From NCBI RefSeq assembly GCF_032191465.1, contig NZ_JAQOUE010000001.1, positions 2,759,501 to 2,823,500 of the forward strand: DNA of 64,000 nt, in the 5' to 3' direction. Numbering within the stretch: position 1 is the stretch's first letter; each line of letters begins with the position of its first letter. This DNA comes from Candidatus Nitronereus thalassa. GTDB lineage: Bacteria; Nitrospirota; Nitrospiria; Nitrospirales; UBA8639. The translations under genes were made by a program, and so were the position numbers. The notes below the pieces were generated by a model. It was given only the letters and a program-made list of their open reading frames with translations, was not told the origin of the DNA and made no database searches. Of the stretch, positions 16,395 to 20,873 are shown piece by piece.

Positions 16395-16423
16395 TTGACA
16401 GAAAGCGGGGGGTCTGTTACCTA
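16395..16423 (+). promoter_or_regulatory. Sigma-70-type promoter candidate
   Basis: TTGACA at 16395-16400 and TACCTA at 16418-16423 are separated by 17 bases. The -35 is a perfect consensus, the -10 weak. Transcription would start about 16430, directly before the hairpin at 16434, and would give a leader of about 275 bases for the regulator gene at 16707. Confidence 0.5.
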
Positions 16424-16433
16424 TTAAGTTAAG

Positions 16434-16455
16434 TAGGTGACGGAGCGGTCACCTA
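16434..16455 (+). other. Leader hairpin with 6-base loop
   Basis: TAGGTGAC (16434-16441) and GTCACCTA (16448-16455) are exact complements around the loop GGAGCG. ACCTA just upstream (16419-16423) can compete for the TAGGT arm, giving two alternative folds. The loop has G at position 4 but G rather than A at position 1, so it matches the ANTAR hexaloop rule only in part. Confidence 0.6.
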
Positions 16456-16487
16456 GTGTTTTACAATAGGGTATTCAGGACAACGAA

Positions 16488-16526
16488 CGTCCTTCCCCAA
16501 GTAAGTTTGGGAAAGGGCGTTTTTTT
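16488..16526 (+). terminator. Rho-independent terminator in the regulator leader
   Basis: CGTCCTTCCCCAA (16488-16500) pairs with TTGGGAAAGGGCG (16507-16519) over a 6-base loop with one mismatch, followed by seven T. It lies about 60 bases after the proposed start site and 180 bases before the regulator gene, so it is either an attenuator or the end of a small RNA of roughly 95 bases. Confidence 0.7.
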
Positions 16527-16617
16527 ATGACTTTTTGTGGTGGGTTTTGAATACTGGGAAAACTTGATACCAGAAAATTCTCAAGATTTTGTATATCATT
16601 TGACGATAAGACAGATA

Positions 16618-16690
16618 GGCAAAGGCGCCGGGTCAACCATGGGAGGAGTTTCCTTTTCCCTTGGTCAGCTTCGGCGCCTTTTGTATTTTG
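16618..16690 (+). promoter_or_regulatory. Leader element A: hexaloop motif overlapping a second terminator-like hairpin
   Basis: GGC-AAAGGC-GCC at 16618-16629 could form a short hairpin with a six-base loop having A at position 1 and G at position 4. The same bases AAAGGCGCCG (16621-16630) also pair with CGGCGCCTTT (16672-16681), giving a long stem ending in TTTTGTATTTT. The two folds exclude each other. The layout matches the element before the transporter at 18349, including the shared GGCAAAG word, but the short stem is only three pairs and no good first hairpin is seen. Confidence 0.5.
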
Positions 16691-16706
16691 AGGTTACAAG
16701 GACACA

Positions 16707-17852
16707 ATGATTTCTCATTCTGAAATGGCTCAACTCGATCTGCTGGAAGAGGTCGTAAAGATCTTGACTAGCCTTGATTCGCCGGAGCGGCGAATAGAAC
16801 GGGCATTGGCATTATTAGGGCATGAGCCCAAGAAATCCATGACTTCGTTGAAAGGATCAAAAGGAAACAAAGCCATGCCTGTACTGATTGGCACGAGTCC
16901 TATCATGGAGACTCTGCAAGCAGCGATCCAACGGATAGCGAGTACCCCAGCCACGGTATTGATTCGTGGAGAGAGTGGAACCGGCAAGGAACTGGTCGCG
17001 CGAAGTATTCATGTTTCTAGTCGAAGAGCAGGCTATCCATTTGTGGCCGTGCATTGTGCAGCTGTTCCGGAGTCATTGATTGAATCAGCTTTATTCGGTC
17101 ATGAACGTGGTGCGTTCACTGGCGCGCATCAACGAAAAAAAGGGCGGTTGGAGCAAGCGTCTGGGGGAACCTTGTTTCTTGATGAAATTGGCGATATTCC
17201 AATGGCCACGCAGGTGAAGCTTCTGCGTGTACTCCAGGAAAAAGAATATGAACGGGTTGGGGGCAGTGAGACTCTTCCAGCGGATGTCCGGGTGATTGCT
17301 GCAACGCACCGAAACCTAGAAGCCATGATCCAAACCGGTGAGTTTCGGGAGGATCTGTACTATCGGTTAAATGTCATTCCGCTCGTATTACCACCACTGC
17401 GTGATCGAAGAGAAGATGTGCCAGCACTCATAAACCACTTCTTGGATAAATTCAATCAAGAGAACCGTCGTATGCTTCAACTGGCGCCTTCCTTTGTGGA
17501 TTTGTTAAGTGCTTATCATTGGCCTGGCAATATTCGGGAGTTGCAAAATTGCATTGAACGTTTAGTCGCGTTGTCAGATTCAAAGACAATTGATATCGAT
17601 TCTATTCCAGAATCGTTGGCTTCTTATTTTGAACACATGCGGGCGACACGCATGACTGCAAGCGCGGCACCTCAAACTTCTTCGGTTCAACAAACACTTC
17701 CTGACCGGTTAGATGCCATTGAGCGGGATCGCCTTCGTGAAGCCCTTACCAAAGCCGGATGGGTGAAGGCCAAAGCCGCGAGGTTGTTGGGCATGACCAC
17801 TCGTCAGATTTCGTACAGGATGCAGAAATATCAGCTTGTTGAAGAAGCTTAA
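16707..17852 (+). CDS. Sigma-54-dependent transcriptional activator without a classical sensor domain
   Basis: A 381-residue enhancer-binding protein. Residues 1 to about 57 are a short N-terminal region with no receiver or GAF domain. The AAA+ domain has Walker A GESGTGKE (88-95), the sigma-54 contact loop GAFTGA (135-140), Walker B LFLDE (156-160), and the arginine-finger region ending in HWPGNIRELQN. The C-terminus is a Fis-type helix-turn-helix (KAAARLLGMTTRQISYRMQ). It lies directly upstream of a transporter-nirA unit that has a sigma-54 promoter, so it is the natural candidate activator. Without a sensory domain it may be controlled by its amount, fitting the structured leader in front of it, or by a partner protein. 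Confidence 0.92.
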   Translation: MISHSEMAQLDLLEEVVKILTSLDSPERRIERALALLGHEPKKSMTSLKGSKGNKAMPVLIGTSPIMETLQAAIQRIASTPATVLIRGESGTGKELVARSIHVSSRRAGYPFVAVHCAAVPESLIESALFGHERGAFTGAHQRKKGRLEQASGGTLFLDEIGDIPMATQVKLLRVLQEKEYERVGGSETLPADVRVIAATHRNLEAMIQTGEFREDLYYRLNVIPLVLPPLRDRREDVPALINHFLDKFNQENRRMLQLAPSFVDLLSAYHWPGNIRELQNCIERLVALSDSKTIDIDSIPESLASYFEHMRATRMTASAAPQTSSVQQTLPDRLDAIERDRLREALTKAGWVKAKAARLLGMTTRQISYRMQKYQLVEEA

Positions 17853-17950: not shown

Positions 17951-18046
17951 AATGACCCTCCAAAACCTCCTTGCGAACCAAACAATTTTGTCGGGTTATG
18001 AACATTTTGGTGTGCACTGAACAGGATTGTCAGCATTTGGAAATGA

Positions 18047-18061: not shown

Positions 18062-18096
18062 ATTCACATTTTTTATGATTTTCCAATGTTGGGTTT

Positions 18097-18112
18097 TGGC
18101 AGGTTCCTTGCA
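18097..18112 (+). promoter_or_regulatory. Sigma-54 promoter of the nitrite transporter-nirA operon
   Basis: TGGCAGGTTCCTTGCA matches the -24/-12 consensus TGGCAC-N5-TTGCW with one change and exact GG-to-GC spacing. Transcription would start near 18123, giving a leader of about 225 bases that contains the attenuator at 18228-18318. Confidence 0.8.
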
Positions 18113-18227
18113 AGGAAATAAAGTAAAGGTGATTAACCTACGACATAGAGTTAGGTTCAGACGGTCGAGTCTCACAAGGGAGTGGTCTTGATCACGGTTT
18201 TATCCTGACAACGGCACAGTAAATTTT

Positions 18228-18318
18228 ACCTCTTTGAGAAAAGAGGTCATTGGCAAAGACGCCATCGTTTTAAAGGCGGACTACGAATAGTCCCCGGAAA
18301 ATGATGGCGTCTTTTTTT
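18228..18318 (+). promoter_or_regulatory. Leader element B: two hairpins and an overlapping terminator, ANTAR-type attenuator candidate
   Basis: Three elements occur in order. Hairpin one is ACCTCTT/AAGAGGT (228-234 and 241-247 of the 18 kb block) with loop TGAGAA. Hairpin two is TGGC/GCCA (18251-18264) with loop AAAGAC, which has the A1 and G4 that ANTAR proteins recognise. The terminator pairs AAAGACGCCATC (18255-18266) with GATGGCGTCTTT (18303-18314) and ends in seven T; it shares bases with hairpin two, so only one can form. The GGCAAAGACGCC word is the one I associate with nitrate/nitrite assimilation leaders controlled by NasT/NasR. No ANTAR gene is in the window. Confidence 0.72.
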
Positions 18319-18348
18319 ATGTTCTTGAAAGAGAAGGGGAGACACTCG

Positions 18349-19278
18349 ATGTATATGGAAGATCTCAAGCGAATGGCAGAGGTTTCACGGAAGAAGGTTG
18401 AATATTGCCTGAATGCTCCTGGAGGGTATTTTCTGTTATCCGCCCTGGCAGGTATCTATTTAGGATTGGGTATTTGTTTGATTTTCAGTGTGGGCGCGCC
18501 TTTTGCCGCGGAAGGTTCGGTAGCGCTTAAATTGGTCATGGGGACCTCGTTTGGCGTGGCCTTGACCTTGGTGATCTTTGCGGGATCGGAGCTTTTTACC
18601 GGCAACAATATGGTATGCACCATTGGGGCGCTGGCTCGGACTATTACCTGGAAGCATGTGGGCTGGATCTTTGTGTGGTCCTTTGTCGGGAACCTTATAG
18701 GCTCATTATTTGTGGCATGGATGATCGTACAATCTGGAGTCATGGCCAAGGCTCCTCAAATGGATCTGTTGATGAAGGTGGCCGCCATGAAAATGTCGGC
18801 GTCAGCCTGGGAGCTGTTCATTCGAGGCATCCTCTGTAATGTACTGGTGTGTCTTGCCGTGTGGATGGCGGCAAAAACCAAGAATGAAGCCGCGAAAATT
18901 ATGTTGATCTTCTGGTGTTTGTTCGCATTTATCGGCAGCGGGTTTGAGCATAGCATTGCCAACCAATCGCTGCTGGGCATGGCGTTGTTTCTGCCACATG
19001 GCGAGGCCATTTCCTGGAGTGGTTTTGCATGGAATCAAGTCTTTGTCGGATTGGGTAACATTGTTGGGGGTGCCGTATTGGTTGGCAGTGCGTATTGGTT
19101 GAGCAGCCCCTATCGCATGACGGATTCCGTAGTGACTCAATCTGAACAAACGATCCTGGGGCGCGAGGCCCAAGAATCGTTTGACCATTCTACACCGGCC
19201 TTAACCGCCACAAATTCAGTGGTACCGATGAAGGCCGGGTTTGTGGCCGTACTCAAACATGAGCGAGGAATGCGATGA
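18349..19278 (+). CDS. Formate/nitrite transporter family channel (nitrite uptake)
   Basis: A 309-residue FNT protein with six hydrophobic segments. It has the N-terminal APGGYFLLSALAGIYLGLGI segment, the FAGSELFTGNNM selectivity loop and the family signature GSGFEHSIAN. FNT pentamers pass small monovalent anions such as nitrite and formate across the inner membrane. The four-base overlap with nirA makes nitrite the likely substrate, supplying the cytoplasmic reductase. The start at 18349 follows AGGGGAGA at proper spacing; an earlier in-frame ATG at 18301 lies inside the terminator stem and is rejected. The C-terminal 60 residues after the last membrane segment form an extended cytoplasmic tail. 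Confidence 0.92.
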   Translation: MYMEDLKRMAEVSRKKVEYCLNAPGGYFLLSALAGIYLGLGICLIFSVGAPFAAEGSVALKLVMGTSFGVALTLVIFAGSELFTGNNMVCTIGALARTITWKHVGWIFVWSFVGNLIGSLFVAWMIVQSGVMAKAPQMDLLMKVAAMKMSASAWELFIRGILCNVLVCLAVWMAAKTKNEAAKIMLIFWCLFAFIGSGFEHSIANQSLLGMALFLPHGEAISWSGFAWNQVFVGLGNIVGGAVLVGSAYWLSSPYRMTDSVVTQSEQTILGREAQESFDHSTPALTATNSVVPMKAGFVAVLKHERGMR

Positions 19279-20873
19279 ATAAATTTGAAGTCTTAAAACA
19301 CGAGCGAGATGGGTTGGACATTATGGAGGATCTCCCGATGTTGGCGAAAACCGGATGGGAATCCATATCTGACGATGATATCCAGCGACTCAAATGGTAT
19401 GGCCTGTTTTTGAGAAACCCCACCCCAGGGTATTTCATGATTCGGGTGCGTATCCCCGGAGGCCGGGCAACGTCGGCTCAATTACGCACCTTGGCGGAAA
19501 TCGCTTTGACGTTTGGTAACGGGCAATTGGATTTTACCACGAGGCAACAGATTCAGCTTCGGCATCTGCGAATTGAACACGTGCCTGAAGCATTTGCAAG
19601 AATGGACGAAGTAGGCCTGACGTCGCTGCAAACCGGTTTGGACAATGTGCGCAATATTATGACCTGTCCGGTGGCAGGACTATCGCCAACCGAATGCCTT
19701 GATGCTACGTCGGTGGTGCATGCCTTAAACGAAGAAATCGTGGGCAATCGGGAATATACGAATCTTCCTCGGAAATTCAATGTGGTGATTACAGGTTGTC
19801 CTGATAATTGCCTCCATGCCGAGACGCAAGATTTAGCCCTTGTGCCGGCAACCAAAGATATCGATGGTGAAACGAAGGTCGGATTTAATGTGTTAGTAGG
19901 TGGGAAACTGGGATCTGGAGGATTCCGGATCGCCACGCCATTGGATGTGTTTGTTCTCCCGGAAGATGCGGTACAGGTTTCTTGCGCGGTGATTAAAGCG
20001 TTTCGGGATTACGGATTCCGGGATTCACGAACGACCGCCCGGCTCGCATTTTTATTGGAAGAGTGGGGTGAAGTCCGGTTTCGAGTGGAAGTCGAGCGAC
20101 AACTTGGTCATCATTTACTTACTGCTGGAAAAGACGCCAGGAAAAATTCAGAAAATCTTCATGGTGGAGTATTCCGGCAACCACAAATGGGATTGAACTA
20201 TGCGGGCCTCCATATTCCAGTCGGGAGAATCGAAGGCAAAGGTCTGTTGAAACTTTGTGAATTGGCCGAGCGTTTTGGGACGAGTGCCCTGCGTCTTGGG
20301 GCCAATCAGACATTGGTTATTCCCAATATTCACGACAAAGCTCTTGGTGAATTTCTGGAAGAGCCAGTGCTGCAAAAATTTGGTTACAATCCATCGCCCA
20401 TCAGAAAAGGCTTGGTGAGTTGTGTAGGAAGTGATTATTGTAACCTTGCGGTCATCGAAACCAAAAGCCAAGCGATGAAAACGGCTGCGGCCTTAGAAGC
20501 CAAAGTGGTCTCAGAGATTAAACCGATCACCATGCACTGGTCAGGCTGCCCTGCAGGATGTGGGAATCATCTCGTAGCGGACATTGGATTATTAGGGAAA
20601 AAGATCAAGCGTCGCGGTCAAATCGTGGAGGCGGTTGATGTCTATGTGGGCGGGCGATCGGGCCCAGATGCCAAGCTGGCGACGAAATTGTTGGAAGACG
20701 TCCCGTGCGAGGAGTTGGCCGAGGTGTTAGCTGGAGTGGTGCCGTATCATGCTCGGGAAAAGATGCATCGAGAAAAGAAGCGCATGCGACCAAAATCAGC
20801 TAGCGTAAGAACGAGTACTGCTGTGGTGAGTCCCTCCTCGCTGGTGAAGGAATCTGTCGCTGGTCGCTTGTGA
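19275..20873 (+). CDS. nirA: Assimilatory ferredoxin-nitrite reductase (siroheme, 4Fe-4S)
   Basis: A 532-residue nitrite/sulfite reductase family protein that reduces nitrite to ammonium with six electrons from ferredoxin. It has the two ferredoxin-like half domains and the four cluster/siroheme cysteines Cys383, Cys389, Cys425 and Cys429, spaced C-x5-C-x35-C-x3-C. Sulfite reductase is the main alternative; the adjacent nitrite-type channel and the nitrogen-style leader favour nitrite. The ATG overlaps the transporter stop as ATGA. The last dozen codons run into the family B repeat, so the C-terminus (VAGRL) is repeat-derived. Confidence 0.92.
   Translation: MNKFEVLKHERDGLDIMEDLPMLAKTGWESISDDDIQRLKWYGLFLRNPTPGYFMIRVRIPGGRATSAQLRTLAEIALTFGNGQLDFTTRQQIQLRHLRIEHVPEAFARMDEVGLTSLQTGLDNVRNIMTCPVAGLSPTECLDATSVVHALNEEIVGNREYTNLPRKFNVVITGCPDNCLHAETQDLALVPATKDIDGETKVGFNVLVGGKLGSGGFRIATPLDVFVLPEDAVQVSCAVIKAFRDYGFRDSRTTARLAFLLEEWGEVRFRVEVERQLGHHLLTAGKDARKNSENLHGGVFRQPQMGLNYAGLHIPVGRIEGKGLLKLCELAERFGTSALRLGANQTLVIPNIHDKALGEFLEEPVLQKFGYNPSPIRKGLVSCVGSDYCNLAVIETKSQAMKTAAALEAKVVSEIKPITMHWSGCPAGCGNHLVADIGLLGKKIKRRGQIVEAVDVYVGGRSGPDAKLATKLLEDVPCEELAEVLAGVVPYHAREKMHREKKRMRPKSASVRTSTAVVSPSSLVKESVAGRL

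Follow-up and report, generated by a model that had tools for sequence, protein, structure and literature searches.

A predicted ANTAR-controlled feed-forward circuit for nitrite assimilation, with two serial attenuators in the leader of a sigma-54 activator gene of Candidatus Nitronereus thalassa

The closest described systems are RNA leaders controlled by ANTAR proteins. According to PMC3369931, an ANTAR-target RNA has two hexaloop hairpins, P1 and P2, with A and G at loop positions 1 and 4 (A1 and G4), the second hairpin overlaps a terminator, and the P1-P2 linker of eut leaders, which are controlled by EutV, is 5-12 nt. In the EutV complex, the direct contact is to G4 and not to A1 (PMC8934654). 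Antitermination by EutV is impaired by a linker of 14 nt in vivo or by an additional 20 nt in vitro (PMC3369931, PMC8934654). The literature also describes ANTAR antitermination at nitrate/nitrite assimilation, by NasR at Klebsiella nasF, where a NIT domain senses nitrate/nitrite, and by NasT in other Proteobacteria (PMC3369931, PMC3795266). In Desulfotomaculum acetoxidans, 13 predicted ANTAR attenuators are spread over six units concerned with nitrogen metabolism, and in 2012 none of the GAF-ANTAR proteins had been characterised (both from PMC3369931). In actinobacteria, ANTAR RNAs occur on transcription-factor mRNAs, often act on translation, and often concern LacI/TetR-type factors (PMC8164766).

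We analysed a 64,000-nucleotide stretch of the genome (the window); positions below are window positions, and all features given by window position are on the + strand. The region from 16395 to 16706 is the 5' leader of a gene for a sigma-54 activator without a sensor domain (EBP), and it has two attenuators in series (modules A and B). Our main reading, to which we assign a probability of about 87%, is that both are ANTAR-type transcription attenuators, and that ANTAR antitermination of the activator and of its target forms a coherent feed-forward circuit for nitrite assimilation. As in the Enterococcus faecalis eut system (PMC3369931, PMC8934654), two hairpins of the A1/G4 type are present, the second overlaps the 5' arm of a terminator, and the genome encodes an ANTAR protein that keeps most of the RNA-contact residues. 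Unlike eut, module A has a 7-nt P2 loop and a linker of ~22 nt, the two attenuators stand in series before a gene for a transcription activator, and the protein has tandem GAF domains where EutV has a receiver domain. The same GAF domains, a wider regulon and a sigma-54 activator of its own set the system apart from NasR, with which it would share antitermination at nitrite assimilation genes. It is like D. acetoxidans in its ammonium, urea and nitrite transport targets and in having more than one attenuator per unit (PMC3369931). The actinobacterial cases are similar in that a regulator gene, and hence a secondary regulon, is controlled, and they differ in that here control would act on transcription termination of a sigma-54 activator (PMC8164766). 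Nitrogen genes and mRNAs of transcription factors are already known to come under similar ANTAR control (PMC3369931, PMC8164766), so the finding extends a known kind; what is new is the departures from the published motif, that is, the 7-nt P2 loop in module A and the long linkers. The main text of PMC3369931 does not name Nitrospira, and no activator-plus-target pair was found in it. Our literature searches turned up no publication about regulation by ANTAR proteins in Nitrospira, which is not proof of absence.

The leader begins with a probable sigma-70-type promoter (TTGACA at 16395-16400, a 17-bp spacer, and TACCTA at 16418-16423), which would place the RNA start near 16430. In the 28 relatives whose module A was read, a TTGAC box lies equally far ahead of P1. 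A consensus scanner listed the P1 hairpin and did not list the promoter of this leader or either of its terminators (T1 and T2), so that the support for these three elements is comparative. The initial annotation had described an 8-bp hairpin following the promoter candidate and then a Rho-independent terminator, and both are present, as P1 (16434-16455) and T1 (16488-16526). It had also described a competing pairing of ACCTA (16419-16423), which we set aside: these nucleotides lie within the probable -10 box TACCTA and are therefore probably absent from the RNA.

P1 of module A has an 8-bp stem and the hexaloop GGAGCG, with G4 and with G in place of A1. It is followed, after a linker of ~22 nt in this species (15-34 nt over the regulon), by P2, the putative antiterminator (GGAC-AACGAAC-GTCC, 16478-16492), which has a 7-nt loop; both hairpins are placed by the alignment of 28 leaders. 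T1, placed by folding and covariation, has its stem at 16488-16519 and its U-run at 16520-16526, and the 3' arm of P2 lies within its 5' arm. The predicted fold of 16420-16530 was more stable than those of dinucleotide shuffles (z = -5.0), as was that of the T1 region alone (16478-16528; z = -4.1). The free energy of the leader fold was -35.0 kcal/mol with T1 and -25.7 kcal/mol with P2 forced.

Covariation analysis, which had been proposed as a check, found a conserved structure. We aligned 28 leaders with module A, which in this family come from loci of the EBP or of FNT (formate/nitrite transporter). In the P1 stem, both sides had changed in 6 of the 8 pairs. For P1 and T1 together, 92.7% of cells could pair, with a covariation score of 0.408, compared to 0.189 for shuffled alignments (0 of 500 as high); the score fell to 0.07-0.17 when the alignment was slid by 1-3 columns. 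The 11-pair helix of T1 was 94.8% paired, with 4 pairs changed on both sides. Under a picking pattern that demanded a purine at loop position 1 and G at position 4, the P1 loop had 6 nt in 28/28 leaders and G4 in 28/28, with A1 in 23/28 and G1 in 5/28, including this species; a free hairpin search with no letter requirement recovered the same P1 hairpins in 26 of 29 loci. The GGAC/GUCC arms of P2 were invariant in 28/28, in part by construction for GGAC because leaders were collected using that word; GGAC lies outside the terminator, and GUCC is common to P2 and T1. The P2 loop was 7 nt in all 28 (a 7-nt pattern was used for collection), with A1 in 28/28 and G4 in 25/28. T1 by itself resembles a normal terminator, and the stems could in principle be ordinary terminators that insulate neighbouring genes and regulate nothing. 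Against this stand the location of T1 and T2 between a promoter and the gene it is to serve, and the P1 covariation and the invariant loop letters outside the terminator stem, and we consider such a role extremely improbable.

Module B has the hexaloop hairpin P2' (GGC-AAAGGC-GCC, 16618-16629, from a set of 22 module-B sequences), with A1 and G4. As the initial annotation had it, a second terminator-like stem begins within this hairpin. This stem, T2, was identified by folding (AAAGGCGCCG ... CGGCGCCTTT; 16621-16682, with the stem reaching to 16681), and in this species its U-tract (CCTTTTGTATTTTG) is weak. The fold of 16560-16695 beat dinucleotide shuffles (z = -4.7), and module B before the activator had a free energy of -43.4 kcal/mol, compared to -27.4 kcal/mol with P2' forced. 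A second module B (18252-18318) precedes the FNT nitrite transporter. In the FNT leader, folding gave a first hairpin, P1' (ACCTCTT-TGAGAA-AAGAGGT, 18228-18247), and a terminator with a 17-bp stem (18255-18318, U-run at 18312-18318); P2' (GGC-AAAGAC-GCC, 18252-18263), a hexaloop hairpin with A1 and G4, is supported by word counts and by the module-B set. The region 18215-18320 folded better than dinucleotide shuffles (z = -7.6), at -45.9 kcal/mol, compared to -31.4 kcal/mol with P2' forced. In each module, the 3' arm of P2 or P2' is the 5' arm of the terminator, and the second hairpin and the terminator are therefore mutually exclusive. Forcing the second hairpin cost 9 to 16 kcal/mol, which is what a protein-dependent switch would be expected to show.

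In all 22 module-B sequences, the loop had A1 and G4, a constancy due in part to the search pattern, and the GGC arm outside the terminator was invariant. The P1' loops diverge among relatives; at FNT there is a hairpin before P2', often with a 7-nt loop, and no convincing P1' of module B was found before the activator gene in this genus and in genus g2. A canonical ANTAR hairpin as P1' of module B is thus unsupported in some lineages. Further upstream in the FNT leader (18159-18193), AGAC-GGTCGA-GTCT followed by CTCACAAGGGAGTGGTCTTGATC forms a hexaloop-like hairpin that is kept in two congeners.

The two leaders had been linked by a shared word, a claim that stood for a longer word and failed for the bare one. 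GGCAAAG was not enriched (14 occurrences in the window compared to 10.7 expected), and we dropped it as evidence in favour of a 12-mer plus terminator. The 12-mer GGCAAAGNCGCC occurs 2 times in the window, compared to 0.05 expected, and 0 of 100 shuffles had 2. Combined with a matching terminator, it has exactly two matches in the 4.0-Mb genome, which are the leader of the activator gene and the FNT leader. Over the family there were 21 such occurrences, in 19 of 48 genomes, and a reversed control pattern had zero matches across the 48 genomes.

The activator gene (16707-17852) encodes an AAA+ domain and a Fis-type HTH (PF00158, PF02954). Its translation contains GAFTGA, so that the AAA+, GAFTGA and HTH features of sigma-54 activators are all present. 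Its best NCBIfam model is nifA, matched from model position 188 on and below cut-off, and it does not classify as NifA: the GAF domain is absent and the TIGR01817 score is 441.9 bits, compared to a cut-off of 528.85. A contig scan for relatives of this protein gave mostly distant activators, with one useful locus (L156). Downstream of the gene are three candidate activator sites resembling GAACAAWATTGTC and ~20 bp apart (17980-17992, 18000-18012 and 18019-18031), and then a sigma-54 promoter (TTGGCAGGTTCCTTGCA, 18096-18112) whose score was above those of all 200 shuffles; the sites and the promoter are both kept in two congeners. These are followed by the FNT/NirC-type transporter gene (18349-19278, PF01226) and a gene for a NirA-type ferredoxin-nitrite reductase (19275-20873, PF01077/PF03460) that overlaps the FNT stop; the best model for the reductase is NF007125, just below cut-off. 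The pairing of sigma-54 activation with ANTAR antitermination at genes for nitrogen metabolism would recall the Geobacter nif cascade of Ueki and Lovley, reportedly a two-component cascade of an NtrC-like activator and a receiver-type ANTAR antiterminator.

We compared 13 genomes that have the activator with nine tested genomes that lack it and have a readable FNT leader. When the activator is present, module A precedes it. When it is absent, FNT itself has modules A and B (9/9), whereas module A was found at FNT in 0/13 genomes with the activator (P = 2e-6). From this comparison, module A accompanies the first gene, which is the activator if present and FNT otherwise. A sigma-54 promoter at FNT was found in 9/13 genomes with the activator and in 0/9 genomes lacking it (P = 0.0017), where scores were never above those of shuffles. 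Seven of the activator-containing genomes have module B at FNT, and all seven belong to the nine with the sigma-54 promoter. Palindromes GACAAAATTGTC/GACAATATTGTC occur before FNT in several activator-containing relatives and in none of the nine lacking it.

These distributions bear on the possibility that ANTAR control is real and the activator serves genes other than FNT-nirA, with no feed-forward loop. Several genomes of genus g2 that have the activator either lack FNT or have it without a sigma-54 promoter, as this possibility would predict. Against it, the activator is adjacent to FNT, and FNT is preceded by palindromic sites and a sigma-54 promoter only in genomes that have the activator; we regard this possibility as fairly unlikely. 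Four activator-containing genomes of genus g2 (L066-L069) have FNT without module B or a sigma-54 promoter, and regulation in this genus seems to have been rewired.

The arrangement also bears on a trans-acting small RNA. The initial annotation had offered a small RNA ending at 16526 as the other reading. On such a view, 16395-16526 would be an independent gene, complete with promoter and terminator, and T2 an unrelated stem. The promoter and terminator are strong and conserved, the module ends cleanly at T1, and two genomes (L006 and L008) have activators without module B. Nevertheless, the module is always in cis, before the activator or, in genomes lacking it, directly before FNT; the exclusivity of P2 and T1 and the invariant GGAC would be left unexplained; and this architecture recurs upstream of further nitrogen operons and downstream of the ANTAR gene. 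A small RNA is thus less likely as the main role, and we consider an independent gene very unlikely. In the uninduced state we do expect termination to leave a leader RNA of ~97 nt whose end lies near 16526.

Comparative evidence supports the proposal of a single RNA-binding protein acting on both the activator and its target, and the candidate is the only ANTAR-domain protein in the genome, a 421-residue GAF-GAF-ANTAR protein. Its candidacy rests on the ANTAR-type architecture, the covariation, the recurrence of the motif beside the ANTAR gene, and co-occurrence over the phylum. There is one clear ANTAR match in each of the 48 family genomes. The ANTAR domain aligns with the solved EutV and NasR structures. 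Of the EutV RNA contacts of PMC8934654, mapped by hand, R142, K143, K149, E160, M172, N173 and R175 are kept, and four are altered (Y164 to F, K147 to R, R168 to Q and R177 to S).

We trained a covariance model (R1) on the EBP and FNT leaders only and ran it over whole genomes. R1 recovered further sites with both loops, without the use of loop-letter patterns, and in 40/48 family genomes one of its sites lies on the strand of the ANTAR gene or domain, 75-832 bp further downstream. The other targets that were read include a porin with an ammonium transporter (amtB), a porin with UrtA, NadE, and an NMT1-family ABC binding protein; in these operons both hairpins mostly have 6-nt loops with G4. 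In a class-level relative (L154), the target is another sigma-54 activator. The NAD synthetase gene (nadE), an unusual member of such a regulon, directly follows the ANTAR gene with an ANTAR-type leader of its own in L136 (identified by Pfam) and, judged by a shared protein start, in L144 and L150; the match beside nadE in the genome studied here is weak (E = 0.004). Many R1 sites lie before a gene for a BBP2-type porin, often beside a transporter gene (L139, L142, L151 and others), which suggests porin-transporter pairs for nitrogen compounds. One match behind a glutamine-synthetase-like ORF (G000:C1:491054) was weak (E = 0.03) and without the P2 word, and was taken as chance.

Over the phylum, the motif was found in 48/245 genomes, with an ANTAR domain in 47/48 genomes that have the motif compared to 51/197 others (Fisher, 1e-21), and in sister family f2 the motif was found in 31/37 genomes with ANTAR compared to 1/20 among those listed without it (5e-9); because the genomes are related and not phylogenetically independent, these P values overstate independence. 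In one genome, G209, R1 gave a match (E = 2.7e-4) and no ANTAR domain was detected, possibly because the site is a relic or the gene was missed. The co-occurrence weighs against the idea that the leader itself senses a nitrogen metabolite, as a riboswitch or an attenuator that works without protein. Riboswitches, too, typically have mutually exclusive hairpins, and nitrogen genes are downstream here. On the other side, Rfam gave no match at the gathering threshold or under the looser limit of E <= 1, and the conserved single-stranded positions are ANTAR loop positions, with no ligand-binding core. We therefore regard a riboswitch as highly improbable.

Several features speak against the ANTAR reading itself: the 7-nt P2 loop, G1 in the P1 of this species, the long linkers, and the weak U-tract of T2. 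Given the 7-nt P2 loop, linkers of 15-34 nt and the missing P1' in some lineages, the published ANTAR motif is only partly matched.

The mechanism that we infer from the computed anatomy, covariation, co-occurrence, synteny and sigma-54 consensus would run as follows. Polymerase would start near 16430 and make P1. With the ANTAR protein inactive, T1 would fold in the nascent RNA and transcription would end near 16526; polymerases that pass T1 would encounter T2 ahead of the start codon at 16707. In response to a presumably nitrogen-related signal, active GAF-GAF-ANTAR protein would bind the hexaloop hairpins, with contact to G4, and stabilise P2 and then P2'. Held in place, P2 and P2' would block the terminators, and the activator mRNA would be completed. 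Because the activator has no sensor domain, its amount is probably the regulated quantity. The activator would bind at 17980-18031 and fire the sigma-54 promoter at 18096-18112. Since another module B lies at the start of the FNT-nirA transcript, this transcript would need the ANTAR protein again. The ANTAR protein could control both leaders, and elsewhere probably also genes for ammonium, urea and NAD synthesis, so that the wider nitrogen-acquisition regulon would take in porin-amtB, porin-urtA, nadE and the NMT1-family ABC binding protein.

At the level of the order, we give even odds to a broader picture in which antitermination by one GAF-GAF-ANTAR protein governs nitrogen acquisition across a regulon of the Nitrospirales, 7-nt loops serve as ANTAR sites, and some lineages have a sigma-54 activator between the two FNT-leader modules, which converts a two-step attenuator into a feed-forward loop that the ANTAR protein gates at activator and target alike. 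The analysis puts forward a candidate regulator together with its RNA sites and a wider regulon, and provides concrete predicted targets for a GAF-ANTAR protein. The 7-nt loop and long linkers would probe how strict ANTAR recognition is. The Nitrospirota include major nitrite oxidisers, and because nitrite is both fuel and nitrogen source for such organisms, the gating of nitrite assimilation would matter to them.
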